A DNA stretch of 64,000 nt from Flagellimonas eckloniae (GTDB lineage Bacteria; Bacteroidota; Bacteroidia; Flavobacteriales; Flavobacteriaceae), in assembly GCF_001413955.1 (NCBI RefSeq), contig NZ_LCTZ01000002.1, positions 3,086,501-3,150,500 of the forward strand, in the 5' to 3' direction. The translations under genes and the position numbers were made by a program. Below are positions 25,715 through 41,652 of this stretch, piece by piece (the first letter of the stretch is position 1; each line of letters opens with the position of its first letter). The notes under the pieces are model-generated. The model searched no databases. It saw only the letters and a program-made list of their open reading frames with translations, and was not told the DNA's origin.

Positions 25715-26323
25715 ATGGCTTTTGAATTACCAAAATTGCCCTATGCATATGATGCTTTAGAGCCACACATAGACGCAAGAACGATGGAAATCCATCATAC
25801 AAAGCACCATAACGGATATACAACCAAATTGAATGGTGCAATTGCAGGAACAGATTTAGAAGGAAAGGAAATCCTTGACATTTTATCAAATTTGGATATA
25901 TCTAATGGAGCCGTAAGGAATAATGGAGGCGGGTTTTATAACCATTCCTTATTTTGGGAAGTAATGTCCCCAAATGGAGGAGGAAGCCCAAGTGGAGCAT
26001 TGGCTGCGGCCATCGATGAGGCTTTTGGTTCTTTTGATGCGTTTAAAGAAAAGTTTAGCGCAGCAGCGGGTACAAGGTTTGGCTCTGGATGGGCATGGCT
26101 TTGTGTACAAAAAGGGGGTAAAGTTGAAGTATGCTCAACACCCAATCAAGATAATCCCATAATGCCGGGAACAGGATGCGATGGGCACCCAATTTTAGGA
26201 TTGGATGTTTGGGAACATGCATATTATTTGAATTATCAGAATAGAAGACCTGATTATGTATCAGCTTTCTTTAATGTAATTAATTGGGATAAGGTTTCTG
26301 AAAATTATGAATCTGGAAAATAG
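25715..26323 (+). CDS. Superoxide dismutase, Mn/Fe family
   Basis: The 202-residue protein has the complete Fe/Mn superoxide dismutase pattern. MEIHHTKHH supplies ligand His27, NNGGGFYNH supplies His77, and LDVWEHAYY carries the conserved Asp and His ligands near the end. It converts superoxide to oxygen and hydrogen peroxide in the cytoplasm, with no signal peptide. The Fe versus Mn preference cannot be read reliably. It is divergent from the AddA-like gene and ends at a strong palindromic terminator. Confidence 0.95.
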
Positions 26324-26343: not shown

Positions 26344-26383
26344 AAAAAAGGTCCAGCACACAATTGTGTGCTGGACCTTTTTT
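26344..26383 (+). terminator. Perfect 40-base palindromic terminator after superoxide dismutase
   Basis: Two 20-base arms, each the exact reverse complement of the other, meet at CAATTG; the GC-rich part is GGTCCAGCACA. A-runs on the left and T-runs on the right make it a strong bidirectional Rho-independent terminator. It also isolates the sod gene from the small-RNA array. Confidence 0.88.
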
Positions 26384-26406
26384 ATTTAATCAATAGGCAT
26401 AAATAG

Positions 26407-26476
26407 AAAAGGGTGAGGAAGCCCTCACCCTTTTCGTCCCAAATCTTACCATAAACTTAACCTACTTATGCTATGG
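26407..26476 (-). ncRNA. Putative small RNA, array copy A (most diverged flanks)
   Basis: On the minus strand the unit begins at 26476 with the conserved core (CCATAGCATAAGTAGG at its 5' end). The 39-base core ends at 26438 and differs from the other copies at one base. It is followed by a 12-bp terminator stem (GGGTGAGG and CCTCACCC, 26407-26434) with T-run. The stem sequence is unlike those of copies B-D, yet pairing is intact. Total length is about 70 bases. The promoter is at 26482-26512. Interpretation as an sRNA is inference; expression is not shown. Confidence 0.6.
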
Positions 26477-26481
26477 CAAAA

Positions 26482-26512
26482 CTAAATTACTGGTATTGTG
26501 AGAAATAACAAA
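26482..26512 (-). promoter_or_regulatory. Promoter of sRNA copy A
   Basis: On the minus strand TTTG (26512-26509), 19 bases, then TAATTTAG (26489-26482), 5 bases before the core. The spacing equals that of the ompA-like promoter, and the -7 differs from TAnnTTTG by one base. Confidence 0.55.
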
Positions 26513-26598
26513 AGTTTTTGAGGCTTTTTTTGATTCTTCAAAAGAAAATTACAGATAATACAGTGCGGAAATTTGGTAAATCCTTGGGGCTCAAATAT

Positions 26599-26668
26599 AA
26601 AGAAGGCGGAGATTTCTCCGCCTTCTTTCCCCAAATCTTACCATGAACTTAACCTACTTATGCTATGG
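26599..26668 (-). ncRNA. Putative small RNA, array copy B
   Basis: A 39-base core (26630-26668, read leftwards) is followed by a 14-bp inverted repeat (26599-26612 and 26615-26628; GAAGGCGGAGA and TCTCCGCCTTC) ending in a T-run on the minus strand. The length is 70 bases. A promoter-like TACATTTG lies exactly 5 bases upstream. The core is identical to those of copies C and D. Confidence 0.62.
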
Positions 26669-26673
26669 TCCTC

Positions 26674-26706
26674 CAAATGTACGTCAAGGAGGCACGTATT
26701 GAAAAA
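26674..26706 (-). promoter_or_regulatory. Promoter of sRNA copy B
   Basis: TACATTTG (26681-26674 on the minus strand) is an exact TAnnTTTG -7 element, 5 bases upstream of the core. A T-run (26706-26702) lies about 20 bases further upstream in the -33 position, without the final G. Confidence 0.5.
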
Positions 26707-26816
26707 GCTTTTAGATGAAACCCTATTAATTGGGTTGAACCGCCATACTTGTGGAGAGCGAGTACTATTGTTAAAGAAAAGGATTACGGGATGAGGTTGC
26801 GGGACTACTGAAAAAT

Positions 26817-26886
26817 AAAAAAGGCGGAGATTTCTCCGCCTTTTTTCCCCAAATCTTACCATGAACTTAACCTACTTATGCTATGG
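26817..26886 (-). ncRNA. Putative small RNA, array copy C
   Basis: The core at 26848-26886 is identical to copy B. The terminator arms (26817-26830 and 26833-26846; AAGGCGGAGA and TCTCCGCCTT) are 14 bp with a 2-base loop. Compared with copy B, the one changed arm base is matched by a compensating change in the other arm (G:C to A:T), so pairing is preserved. Confidence 0.62.
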
Positions 26887-26891
26887 TCCTC

Positions 26892-26924
26892 CAAATGTAC
26901 GTCAAGGAGACACGTATTGAAAAA
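26892..26924 (-). promoter_or_regulatory. Promoter of sRNA copy C
   Basis: TACATTTG (26899-26892 on the minus strand), 5 bases upstream of the core, with a T-run (26924-26920) 20 bases upstream; identical in layout to copy B. Confidence 0.5.
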
Positions 26925-27034
26925 GCTTTTAGATGAAACCCTATTAATTGGGTTGAACAGGCAGACTTGTTGATAGCGAGTACTATTGTTAAAGAAAAGG
27001 ATTACAGACTGGAGTTGTTGGATTACCTGAAAAT

Positions 27035-27105
27035 AAAAAAGGTGGAATAGCTTCCACCTTTTTTGCCCCAAATCTTACCATGAACTTAACCTACTTATGC
27101 TATGG
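27035..27105 (-). ncRNA. Putative small RNA, array copy D (first in the array)
   Basis: The core (27067-27105) matches copies B and C exactly. The terminator is a different 13-bp stem, GGTGGAA and TTCCACC (27035-27047 and 27052-27064), with loop TAGC and T-run. The upstream flank is unrelated to the other copies apart from the -7 element. Copy D lies closest to the 3' end of purF, about 100 bases from its stop codon, and is transcribed in the same direction. Confidence 0.6.
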
Positions 27106-27110
27106 CATTG

Positions 27111-27144
27111 CTAAAGTAGTTTTGACTTCTACCCAGAAAACAAA
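27111..27144 (-). promoter_or_regulatory. Promoter of sRNA copy D
   Basis: TACTTTAG (27118-27111 on the minus strand) is one base off TAnnTTTG and sits 5 bases upstream of the core, like the other copies. TTTT stretches at 27140-27137 and TTTG at 27144-27141 are candidate -33 elements (spacing 18 or 22). Confidence 0.45.
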
Positions 27145-27210: not shown

Positions 27211-29109
27211 TTAATACGCCCTTTGGTTCTTTCCTTCATAGAAATTTATGAAGGCCCTATTTACCACTCTGTTTCCACCGGGAGTTGGGTAGTTGCCTGT
27301 GAAATACCAGTCACCTAAATTTTTAGGACAGGCTTCATGCAAACTTTCAATACTTTGATAAATGATATCCACCTCGGCATTGATTCCTTTTGGACTGAGC
27401 AGCTGAGCTATTTTCTTTGAAATTTGGTTTGCAGTGAACGGGGCATAAAATTCTTTTACGTAATTCACGACCTCTTTATCCTTGGAGCCAGTTTGGGCTA
27501 GACATTTTTCGTAAATCTCTTTAATTTTTGAAGTTGTCCCATTTTCTTCATGCAATGCCTGGGCCGCTTTAAAAGCAACAAAATCCTCTAATTTGGCCAT
27601 ATCTATACCATAACAATCGGGATATCTAATTTGTGGAGCTGAGGAGACCACTATTATCTTTTTTGGAGATAACCTATCAAGAATTTTAAGGATGCTCTTT
27701 TTTAAGGTTGTCCCACGAACAATACTATCATCAATAATAACCAGGTTATCGTTTTCTTCTACCGAACCATATGAAATATCATATACATGGGCCACAAGAT
27801 CATCTCTACTACTGTCTTGGGTAATAAAAGTACGAAGCTTGGCATCCTTGATAGCTACTTTTTCTATTCGGGGCCTAACTTCGAGAATCTTATGAAGTTC
27901 TTCACCGGTAATTTTTGGACCCAATGCTAAAATTTGCTCTTCCTTTCTTTTGTTGAGATAGTTTTGCGCTTCTTTTACCATTCCAAAAAAGGAAGTTTCG
28001 GCAGTATTGGGAATAAAGGAAAATACCGTATTCGCCAAATCATCATCAATGGATTTTAAAATTTGGGGAAAGACCATTTTCCCCAACATTTTGCGCTCTT
28101 GGTAGATTTCTTTATCGCTACCTCTAGAAAAATAGATACGTTCAAAAGAACATGCTTTACGTTCTGTTGGTTCAAGTATTTCCTCTAAATGAACAGTTCC
28201 TTTTTTCTTGATAATAAGTGCATGTCCGGGATCTAATTCCTGTACCTGTTCATATTTAATATTGAAAACAGTTTGAATTACCGGTCTTTCTGATGCCACA
28301 ACCACAACCTCATCATCTTTGTAATAATAGGCGGGACGAATTCCTGCTGGATCACGTACCACAAAAGCATCACCATGCCCCAACAAACCACCAATGGTAT
28401 AGCCACCATCCCAATTCTTGGAAGCCTTGGTCAAAATTTTTGCAACATTCAGTCGCTCTGCTATTAAAGGAGAGGCTTCTCTTTTATTATACCCTTCTTT
28501 TTTTATTTGTTTGTAAAGTTTGGCAACGGCATCGTCTAAAAAATGTCCAATTTTTTCCATCACGGTAACAGTATCCGCCATTTCCTTTGGGTGCTGCCCT
28601 AACGTAATAAGGTTGTTGAAAAGTTCATCAACATTGGTCAAATTAAAATTACCTGCAACGATAAGGTTTCGGTGCATCCAATTGTTTTGTCTTAAAAAAG
28701 GATGAACGCTTTCGATACTATTTTTTCCAAAAGTGCCATATCTAACATGTCCCATCAATAATTCACCTATATAGGGAATGTTCTTTTTTTGAAAAGCTAC
28801 ATTGTCCAAATATTCTGGATGCTGATCAAGTGAAGTGTTGATACGATCATTGATCTGTGCGAATATGTCCTGTATAGGTTGCTGTTTTGCAGAACGCACT
28901 CTACTCATGTAGCGCTCACCAGGATCCATATCTAGTTTTATACTTGCGAAACCAGCACCATCTTGACCTCTATTGTGCTGTTTTTCCATCATCAGGTACA
29001 TTTTGTTTACGCCATAGAAAGCTGTACCATATTTTTCTTTGTAGTACTCCAGAGGTTTAAGCAAACGGATCAGTGATATTCCGCATTCGTGCTTAATCGC
29101 ATCACTCAT
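27211..29109 (-). CDS. purF: Amidophosphoribosyltransferase, long Bacteroidota form
   Basis: The 632-residue protein has a class II glutamine amidotransferase domain. The nucleophile is Cys9 (HECGISLI) after a short propeptide, and GHVRYGTFG and NRGQDGAGF are glutaminase motifs. The phosphoribosyltransferase domain carries the PRPP loop VIIDDSIVRGTTL. It makes 5-phosphoribosylamine, the committed step of purine synthesis. At 632 residues it is longer than the usual 470-500, a form I associate with Bacteroidota. The gene follows the PfkB kinase gene after a terminator-like hairpin, and purN lies two genes further upstream. Confidence 0.9.
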   Translation of the reverse strand: MSDAIKHECGISLIRLLKPLEYYKEKYGTAFYGVNKMYLMMEKQHNRGQDGAGFASIKLDMDPGERYMSRVRSAKQQPIQDIFAQINDRINTSLDQHPEYLDNVAFQKKNIPYIGELLMGHVRYGTFGKNSIESVHPFLRQNNWMHRNLIVAGNFNLTNVDELFNNLITLGQHPKEMADTVTVMEKIGHFLDDAVAKLYKQIKKEGYNKREASPLIAERLNVAKILTKASKNWDGGYTIGGLLGHGDAFVVRDPAGIRPAYYYKDDEVVVVASERPVIQTVFNIKYEQVQELDPGHALIIKKKGTVHLEEILEPTERKACSFERIYFSRGSDKEIYQERKMLGKMVFPQILKSIDDDLANTVFSFIPNTAETSFFGMVKEAQNYLNKRKEEQILALGPKITGEELHKILEVRPRIEKVAIKDAKLRTFITQDSSRDDLVAHVYDISYGSVEENDNLVIIDDSIVRGTTLKKSILKILDRLSPKKIIVVSSAPQIRYPDCYGIDMAKLEDFVAFKAAQALHEENGTTSKIKEIYEKCLAQTGSKDKEVVNYVKEFYAPFTANQISKKIAQLLSPKGINAEVDIIYQSIESLHEACPKNLGDWYFTGNYPTPGGNRVVNRAFINFYEGKNQRAY

Positions 29110-40041: not shown

Positions 40042-41142
40042 TTAAAAATCAAATTCGAGCTGTACGGAAACAGATTCTTTTTTTGGTTCTTCTTTTTTTT
40101 TCTCGGTGTTGAGGTTTGCCAAGGAAATACCTAAGAGACGTACAGAATTTTCCAAGTTGGATTGATATAATAATTCCTTGGCCGTATCTAAAATCAGTTC
40201 TTTGGTGGAAATGAAATATGGAAGTGTTTTGCTCCTAGTCTGGAGTGTAAAATCGCTATACTTTATTTTTAAGGTGAGTGTTTTTCCTGCAATCTTGGAT
40301 TTTTGGAGTCGTCTTTCAAGTTCGTTTGCAATATTTTCCAGTTTTTCCAACATAAAAATTTCACTGCTCAGATTTTCAAAAAAAGTGCGCTCCGCACCGA
40401 CAGATTTTGGAATTCTATGTGGTTTAACGGCACTATTATGAATACCACGAACAACAGAATAATAATATTTGCCACTTTTGCCAAAGTTACTGTCCAGAAA
40501 TTCCAGGGATTTTTGCTTCAAATCCTTTCCTGTAAAAATGCCAAGTTTGTACATTTTTTCAGCGGTCACTTTTCCAACTCCGTAGAACTTTCTAATATCC
40601 AGTTCTTCCAAGAATTGAATAACCTCTTCCGGATTTACAGTTTTTTGTCCATTAGGCTTATTATAGTCACTGGCAACTTTGGCAATAAATTTATTGATGG
40701 AAATTCCAGCAGAAGCTGTCAATCCTGTTTTGTCTAAAATCTTTTGTCGAATTTCTTTAGCGACAAGCGTTGCGGAGGGGTTTCCCTTTTTGTTTTCGGT
40801 TACATCAAGATAAGCTTCATCCAATGAAAGTGGCTCTACCAAATCAGTATACTCAAAAAATATTGCGCGTACCTGCTGTGAAATTTCTTTGTACCGATCA
40901 TACCGGGGTTTTACAAAAATTAAATCTGGGCAATTTCTTCTGGCAATGTATCCTGCCATGGCACTGCGAACACCAAATTTTCGAGCCTCATAACTAGCAG
41001 CAGAAACAACGCCGCGTTTTGACCCTCCGCCCACAGCAACAGGTTTTCCTTTAAGTTCAGGATTATCATGTTGCTCTACAGAAGCATAGAATGCATCCAT
41101 ATCCACATGTATGATTTTTCGTAAAGGAAAATCCAAATCCAT
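40042..41142 (-). CDS. dinB: DNA polymerase IV, translesion polymerase
   Basis: I use the ATG at 41142 (366 residues), because the 12 extra codons start with GTG and would overlap the divergent CYTH gene. The Y-family palm has IIHVDMDAFYASVE with catalytic Asp14 and the probable steric-gate Tyr19, then SLDEAYLDV with Asp108 and Glu109. The extreme C-terminus QLEFDF resembles a beta-clamp-binding motif. It copies past damaged bases at the cost of accuracy. It diverges from the CYTH gene with only 27 bases between start codons. Confidence 0.93.
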   Translation of the reverse strand: MDLDFPLRKIIHVDMDAFYASVEQHDNPELKGKPVAVGGGSKRGVVSAASYEARKFGVRSAMAGYIARRNCPDLIFVKPRYDRYKEISQQVRAIFFEYTDLVEPLSLDEAYLDVTENKKGNPSATLVAKEIRQKILDKTGLTASAGISINKFIAKVASDYNKPNGQKTVNPEEVIQFLEELDIRKFYGVGKVTAEKMYKLGIFTGKDLKQKSLEFLDSNFGKSGKYYYSVVRGIHNSAVKPHRIPKSVGAERTFFENLSSEIFMLEKLENIANELERRLQKSKIAGKTLTLKIKYSDFTLQTRSKTLPYFISTKELILDTAKELLYQSNLENSVRLLGISLANLNTEKKKEEPKKESVSVQLEFDF

Positions 41143-41169: not shown

Positions 41170-41652
41170 ATGGAACACTTGGAAATTGAACGTAAGTTTT
41201 TGGTAAAATCAAATGCTTATAAAGATGGGGCAAAATCCCAAACACGAATTGTACAAGGGTTTTTAAATACCCATTCTGAGCGAACGGTTAGGGTAAGAAT
41301 TAAAGGAGAGCAGGGATTTTTGACCATAAAAGGAATGAGCAATGAATCTGGCACAACACGATTTGAATGGGAAACTGAAATATCTGTAGCCGAAGCAACT
41401 AACCTTATCGATTTATGTGAGCCCATTATTCTGGAAAAGATTCGGTATGAGGTGCCGGTTGGAAAACATAGTTATGAGGTGGACGAATTTTTAGGAGAGA
41501 ACAAAGGACTGATTGTTGCAGAGATAGAATTAGACCACGAAGATGAGGTTTTTAAAAAACCTGATTGGCTAGGAAAAGAAGTTACCGGTGAAGTGAAGTA
41601 TTATAATTCACAACTATCTAACCAACCCTATAATCAATGGAAAAAGCATTGA
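41170..41652 (+). CDS. CYTH-domain protein (inorganic triphosphatase/CyaB-like)
   Basis: The start is the ATG at 41170 (160 residues); the preceding TTG codon is not needed. MEHLEIERKFLV contains the CYTH signature ExExK (Glu5, Glu7, Lys9). Later acidic and basic strand residues (EVDEFLGENKGLIVAEIELDHE) close the tunnel fold that binds triphosphate and divalent metal. Bacterial members hydrolyse inorganic triphosphate, or more rarely make cAMP. No fused domain is present. It converges on a GyrI-like gene with a 9-base gap. Confidence 0.82.
   Translation: MEHLEIERKFLVKSNAYKDGAKSQTRIVQGFLNTHSERTVRVRIKGEQGFLTIKGMSNESGTTRFEWETEISVAEATNLIDLCEPIILEKIRYEVPVGKHSYEVDEFLGENKGLIVAEIELDHEDEVFKKPDWLGKEVTGEVKYYNSQLSNQPYNQWKKH

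Follow-up and report, generated by a model that had tools for sequence, protein, structure and literature searches.

A tandem array of putative sibling small RNA genes with ordered promoter classes at a conserved purF-like/superoxide dismutase locus in Flavobacteriaceae

Four short units with an almost identical core lie side by side on the minus strand of a 64,000-nucleotide stretch of Flagellimonas eckloniae DNA (contig NZ_LCTZ01000002.1, positions 3,086,501 to 3,150,500; this whole stretch is called the window below). What do these copies encode, and why are several of them kept at one locus? An earlier note, made from the sequence alone, had proposed a functional regulatory RNA, and this proposal was supported by the computational tests that we tried. 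We think it rather probable that the array consists of four independently transcribed sibling small RNAs (sRNAs) acting in trans, with base pairing as the likeliest mode. The sequence evidence comprises a promoter box, a start purine, the shared module, a covarying terminator, a conserved locus and a class order. The units were assigned to three classes (class 1, TTCATGG and GGGGC; class 2, TTCATGG and GGGGA; class 3, TTTATGG and GGGAC) and are predicted to be arranged in the window as follows:

27035..27106, minus strand: unit D, putative class 1 sRNA gene (signature TTCATGG..GGGGC); +1 G at 27106, core from 27105, terminator hairpin 27035-27064
26817..26887, minus strand: unit C, putative class 2 sRNA gene (signature TTCATGG..GGGGA); +1 A at 26887, core from 26886, terminator hairpin 26817-26846
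26599..26669, minus strand: unit B, putative class 2 sRNA gene; +1 A at 26669, core from 26668, terminator hairpin 26599-26628
26406..26477, minus strand: unit A, putative class 3 sRNA gene (TTTATGG and GGGACG); +1 G at 26477, core from 26476, terminator hairpin 26406-26435

The four core starts are those placed by the earlier note, and its description of the copies held up: the 39-nt core is identical in units B, C and D and differs in unit A by a single C to T change, each copy runs from TAnnTTwG through five bases, core and hairpin to a T-run, and the flanks of units A and D are unlike those of B and C. A 39-mer containing Y matched all four units with 0 mismatches. For the proposed unit length of 70-71 bases the positions stood and the ends shifted slightly, since the putative transcript is likely to begin one base 5′ of the core and to reach about 72-76 nt including the T-run. 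Units B and C form a tandem duplicate (218 nt at 92% identity), and this duplication is recent. An exact 16-mer search of the host genome (4,132,279 bases) returned four matches compared with none for the reversed control, and no further copy beyond the four units was found with the exact 16-mer or with the 39-mer at up to three mismatches. A search for tRNAs and tmRNA across the whole window found none.

The module, i.e. the 5′ part of each putative RNA, has the consensus RCCAUARCAUAAGUAGGUUAAGUUYAUGGUARGAUUUGGG. For a named set of units, GTDB contigs were scanned for CATWAGTAGGTTAAGTTYATGGTA, which gave at least 118 stretches; figures on 118 stretches refer to those listed. Column entropy was 0.20 bits in the core, of which 24 columns were fixed by the search pattern, compared with 1.69 bits upstream and 1.66 bits downstream. 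Conservation of the module was borne out outside the search pattern by loci picked with a covariance model, 28 of 30 of which matched a 30-nt consensus (carrying three two-fold positions) without mismatch and the other two with one. When these loci and four divergent ones were taken together, 62 of 77 anchored units had zero mismatches, five had one and ten had 5-7, mostly due to small indels close to the 5′ end. Across 17 chosen variants, CCA, AGTAGGTTAAG (preceded by one T), ATGGTA and parts of TTTGGG were invariant. The core drifts hardly at all while the flanks do, and the equal drift that the earlier note had named as an outcome speaking against a functional RNA was not seen. A peptide is unlikely to be encoded, because a 1-nt indel (TAAGATTT/TAGATTT) between clades shifts every frame after the internal ATG.

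Within the same genus, the first 21 nt of the core were detected at up to three mismatches in 58 of 60 genomes, and in the Flavobacteriaceae as a whole, whose members are mostly aquatic, in 198 of 249 genomes and 188 of 235 genera. The reversed 21-mer matched 53 of the 249 family genomes, so that some of the 198 are due to chance, and some inspected matches with three mismatches were not units (L073, L075, L078, L080, L083, L085). Zobellia, Maribacter, Flavobacterium, Aquimarina, Cellulophaga, Winogradskyella and Flagellimonas/Allomuricauda are among the genera represented in the best 80 of the 118 stretches, besides others. A covariance model built from 75 units was used with strict filters to search 395 genomes of the phylum. 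Among the same-family genomes listed, 33 of 41 had a match at E<1e-10, five had a weak one and three had none; outside the family, none of the matches listed fell below 1e-10, the best being 1.1e-4. Three weak matches that were inspected, including one within the family (G240), covered the terminator only. The exact 21-mer was absent from IMG/VR, and no similar stretch was found in phage or plasmid records.

The terminator behaves differently from the module. Of 244 named units, 243 can form a hairpin of 7 bp or more, followed by a T-rich tail in 232. As the earlier note had claimed for the four copies, both arms change together: double changes were observed at 11 of 12 pairs, and 99.0% of cells remained paired. 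The alignment holds 141 double-change cells, a level reached by none of 500 shuffles, and slid controls were paired in 49-68% of cells. Many homologous loci with a conserved core and a covarying stem, which the earlier note had named as support for a functional RNA, are therefore at hand (198 of 249 family genomes).

Each unit is preceded by a putative promoter of its own. The following elements were assigned in the window:

27111..27118, minus strand: predicted -7 element TACTTTAG of unit D, with conserved TAnnTT offset
26892..26899, minus strand: predicted -7 element TACATTTG of unit C, from sequence and offset
26674..26681, minus strand: predicted -7 element TACATTTG of unit B, from sequence and offset
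26482..26512, minus strand: putative class 3 promoter of unit A, TTTG (-33), a conserved 19-nt spacer with CACAATACCAG, and TAATTTAG (-7)
26922..26937, minus strand: upstream box TTCATCTAAAAGCTTT of unit C
26704..26719, minus strand: upstream box TTCATCTAAAAGCTTT of unit B, at about -50 to -35

TAnnTT is located at -12 to -7 in 208 of the 244 named units and is shifted by one base in 25 more. The base preceding the core is A in 167 units, G in 73 and C in four, i.e. a purine in 240 of 244. A TAnnTTTG promoter element is described for Bacteroidota in PMC7366714 and PMC9723704, and the -7 box of the units fits it. Further upstream the classes differ. CAATACCAG occurs in 29 of 33 class 3 units, in none of 43 class 1 and none of 59 class 2 units, and in two of 109 other units. 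Of the class 2 units, 23 of 59 have a box resembling TCATCTAAAA, of the kind seen upstream of units B and C; so do 58 of 109 unclassed units and two of 33 class 3 units, and no class 1 unit does (0/43). A CGgxTTTT box is confined to class 1, where 17 of 43 units carry it. Elsewhere in the host genome the class 2 box was not enriched (44 matches compared with 58 for the reversed control), none of five inspected matches outside the array resembled a similar promoter, and the class 3 spacer had two other matches at three mismatches, neither with a -7 box after it.

The classes follow a strict order. Among 116 arrays, class 3 is the last unit, adjoining the dismutase gene, in all 33 arrays that hold it, and class 1 is the first in all 30 multi-unit arrays that hold it; class 2 lies between them in variable number. 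The patterns are 123 (11 arrays), 1223 (9), 12223 (4), 122223 (1) and a few variants, and the window itself shows 1-2-2-3. Where the signatures occur, the order of the sequence-defined classes is fixed and each class has its own promoter type, which is a new observation. Recent duplication alone does not explain the shared module, since it has stayed the same between old classes with diverged promoters.

The array has conserved neighbours, which in the window are the following:

27211..29109, minus strand: purF-like gene (amidophosphoribosyltransferase-like, 632 aa), upstream neighbour on the same strand as the array
25715..26323, plus strand: Fe/Mn superoxide dismutase gene, convergent with the array; Pfam Sod_Fe_N and Sod_Fe_C both exceed their cut-offs
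26344..26383: perfect 20-bp inverted repeat with A/T runs, in the gap that separates the array from the dismutase gene

The first gene is termed purF-like because its best NCBIfam model, purF, reached 126 bits and stayed below the cut-off of 350 bits; its GATase domains scored above theirs. The inverted repeat is likely to be a two-way terminator. By tblastn of the window proteins, 102 of the 118 stretches hold the purF-like gene and 96 the dismutase gene; in 86 the array sits between the two in the expected orientation. One flank only was found in 26 stretches, often because the stretch breaks off, and neither in six. The 86 two-flank arrays hold one unit (30 arrays), two (23), three (16), four (11), five (5) or six (1), and in 81 of them the first unit begins 68-145 nt past the purF-like match. 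The module is nearly constant between genera whose purF-like proteins diverge from that of the window by up to 41% of residues (59% identity, the lowest among 47 listed rows). On this comparative evidence the locus is old.

A search of the whole window against Rfam 15 at gathering scores matched no family, Flavo-1 included, in agreement with the earlier note, which knew of no matching family; at a relaxed threshold STnc40, sraA, Thr_leader and others scored via the terminator and were rejected. The literature searches yielded no description of a purF/sod-linked sRNA array, the supplementary sRNA tables of PMC9723704 and PMC5395568 lying outside the search. These two Flavobacterium transcriptome papers report further candidate sRNAs in their supplements, and it is possible that the units were detected earlier under another name among those candidates. 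In the same bacterial family, the Rfp sRNAs are, as described in PMC9723704, conserved independent transcripts; Rfp18 of Flavobacterium psychrophilum has at least three stem-loops, the third of which pairs with protease mRNAs. The unit differs from the Rfp18 fold, since besides a single strong hairpin it can form no more than one weak one.

In LhrC and Qrr, near-identical RNAs occur in several copies, every copy having a promoter and a terminator to itself, and one target set is presumably shared. The present array resembles them in its multiple near-identical units with, as far as sequence can tell, a promoter and a terminator for each; every copy combines these with the shared module, which is what marks sibling or multicopy sRNAs. 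It differs in its unrelated sequence and in a promoter-class order kept across genera. LhrC (Listeria) and Qrr (Vibrio) are named as sibling sRNA sets in PMC11697453. The closest system in the descriptions consulted is FopS/GibS of Bacteroides (RF04319; PMC11697453, PMC7366714). As PMC11697453 describes it, FopS of Bacteroides thetaiotaomicron comprises 14 paralogues at dispersed sites, in which a conserved, single-stranded 5′ seed is combined with a terminator; it is bound by the RRM-1 protein RbpB and represses SusC translation. The units share with it a 5′ module followed by a terminator and the presence of multiple copies (PMC11697453), and both modules contain UUCAUGGUA, followed by AGAUUU after a 2-nt gap. 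In contrast to the dispersed FopS genes, the units lie in tandem at one old locus and have the 5′ sequence CCAUARCAUAAGUAGGUUAAG.

Several results weigh against the reading as sibling sRNAs acting in trans. No convincing mRNA target emerged beyond controls. In the host genome, the complement of the central module had two non-self matches compared with three for the reversed control, and a 16-nt wobble pattern had 56 compared with 74; only one of 26 inspected wobble matches was located at the start of a sizeable open reading frame (ORF; L369, one mismatch, 228 aa). The start regions of 22 SusC genes paired no better than those of 46 window genes (Mann-Whitney p 0.73). Among 188 start regions of the host genome, which include loci chosen for resemblance to the complement and are hence biased towards pairings, there was no excess either: 10 of 120 sampled regions reached the cut-off, compared with 5-22 for shuffled cores. 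The 40-nt core folded no better than shuffled sequences (z -0.10; the four host units were trimmed by a few 5′ bases), and a possible 5′ stem RCCAU/AUGGU had no covariation support. RRM_1 (PF00076) had no match in the host genome at E<=0.001 with a positive control in Bacteroides ihuae, the search for RNA-binding partners being limited to this family, with Hfq, ProQ and other RNA-binding families not searched. Finally, 68 of the 116 arrays, in other genera, contain no unit with class 1-3 signatures.

Two apparent pairing signals were not taken as evidence of targets. Enrichment of pairing by TTCATGG and CATAAGT at SusC starts reflected start-codon pairing, which is destroyed in the shuffles. 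A dinB-like ORF (DNA polymerase IV, 40042-41142) had the lowest start duplex energy among the 46 window genes (-28.9 kcal/mol), which was reached by one of 150 shuffled cores. It was not counted as a target because internal loops occur throughout the duplex and because the start region of the divergent neighbour (41170-41652) also pairs with the core, at -24.2 kcal/mol; both pairings are probably due to chance but are kept as a possible lead. As a side observation, 16 of 22 SusC genes of the host genome (L274-L295, over the TIGR04056 cut-off) carry AACTAA in the 60 nt before their start, compared with a mean of 1.83 in mononucleotide shuffles and with two of 46 window genes within 45 nt; AACTAA is perhaps a common leader motif of SusC mRNAs, translational or regulatory.

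The main rival explanation is that the RNAs are protein decoys: the module would bind a lineage-specific RNA-binding protein, the array would titrate it and the promoter classes would set the amount of free protein, by the titration logic known from CsrB/RsmY. We regard this as unlikely. It would account for near-identity over approximately 40 nt, including positions without a pairing role and exceeding what an ordinary seed needs, for a constant module despite varying copy number, and for the lack of an excess of complementary start regions. On the other hand, each RNA carries one module with no motif repeated inside the unit, and no candidate protein was found, RRM_1 being absent from the host genome and other RNA-binding families not having been searched. 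It is very improbable that the units are no regulatory RNA genes at all and represent copies of a cis element, or a string of terminators, belonging to the purF-like gene, or else a repeat at the DNA level. The named units of the 86 two-flank arrays do all lie just 3′ of that gene on its strand, but every unit is preceded by a separate promoter box at constant distance, terminators alone need no invariant 40-nt leader, the class order is kept across genera, and a few copies occur elsewhere (six of 118 stretches with neither neighbour).

True, distant homology to Bacteroides FopS/GibS, with the genes having moved to or been retained at the purF-like/sod locus, would agree with the common layout and multiple copies described in PMC11697453, yet it appears quite improbable. 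The RF04319 model aligned UUCAUGGUAUUAGAUUU with UUCAUGGUA--AGAUUU at 21.0 bits, but this score and the best of another search (20.6 bits) are far under the gathering score of 56 bits. The FopS R1 sequence and the 5′ region of the unit have 15 bases in common with a 2-nt gap; by shuffling, eight pairings gave p values of 0.009 at best and otherwise of 0.05-0.57. RF04319 exceeded its cut-off in five of the 395 phylum genomes, none of them Flavobacteriaceae, and its sole match in the family at E<=0.01 (G667, 33.3 bits) is antisense to an apparent ORF start. In addition, the host genome had no RRM_1 match, and pairing with SusC starts was not enriched. As shuffles and phylum search gave no support, homology is not regarded as established and the similarity is kept as a resemblance. 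Sub-threshold FopS-like matches were observed in other Bacteroidia families (L124, L125 and L126; 43.9, 36.4 and 35.1 bits), and FopS-type RNAs may thus reach beyond Bacteroidaceae.

Under the preferred explanation, sibling sRNAs acting in trans, each RNA of about 72-76 nt would present a near-invariant module, partly single-stranded or with a possible weak 5′ hairpin exposing AGUAGGUUAAG, followed by an intrinsic terminator that is free to vary. The module would pair with several mRNAs, probably near translation starts by analogy with FopS in Bacteroides. Class-specific promoters would allow different signals to raise one and the same RNA, and duplications of class 2 might tune the dose. A wider version is possible but rather doubtful: the array may be a family-wide RNA hub, ancient and ordered, in which promoters of three classes (class 3 at least with a long conserved and probably regulated spacer) and a middle class of variable dose deliver a nearly unchangeable module of approximately 40 nt to a global factor (protein or conserved RNA). 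Such a hub would be the Bacteroidota equivalent of Csr- or Hfq-centred control, in a lineage for which those partners are not known. If so, deletion of one short intergenic stretch in a tractable strain would remove all copies and make the question of partners and targets directly testable. To our knowledge, post-transcriptional control in Flavobacteriaceae is almost unexplored. The module is among the more conserved non-coding sequences to be found in this family, and the fixed order of promoter classes offers a clean case for asking why bacteria keep redundant sRNAs.

Related elements were observed as well. A locus of another genus (L084, 1022, plus strand) carries the variant TCATAGTATAAGTTGGTTAAG followed by AGATTTGGGACG, which is class 3-like and is without the class 3 terminator. 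Another conserved element, which shares its front part (CCATGGTCTAAGTAGGTTAAG) with the units, was found in L069 (1515-1430, minus strand), L070 (1475, plus strand) and L071 (1464, plus strand); in L069 it is located 3′ of a DUF3078 gene, with hflX convergent to it. It had no Rfam match. Its 21-mer is present in at least 18 genomes of the same genus, and the element may represent a second RNA sharing the recognition module.
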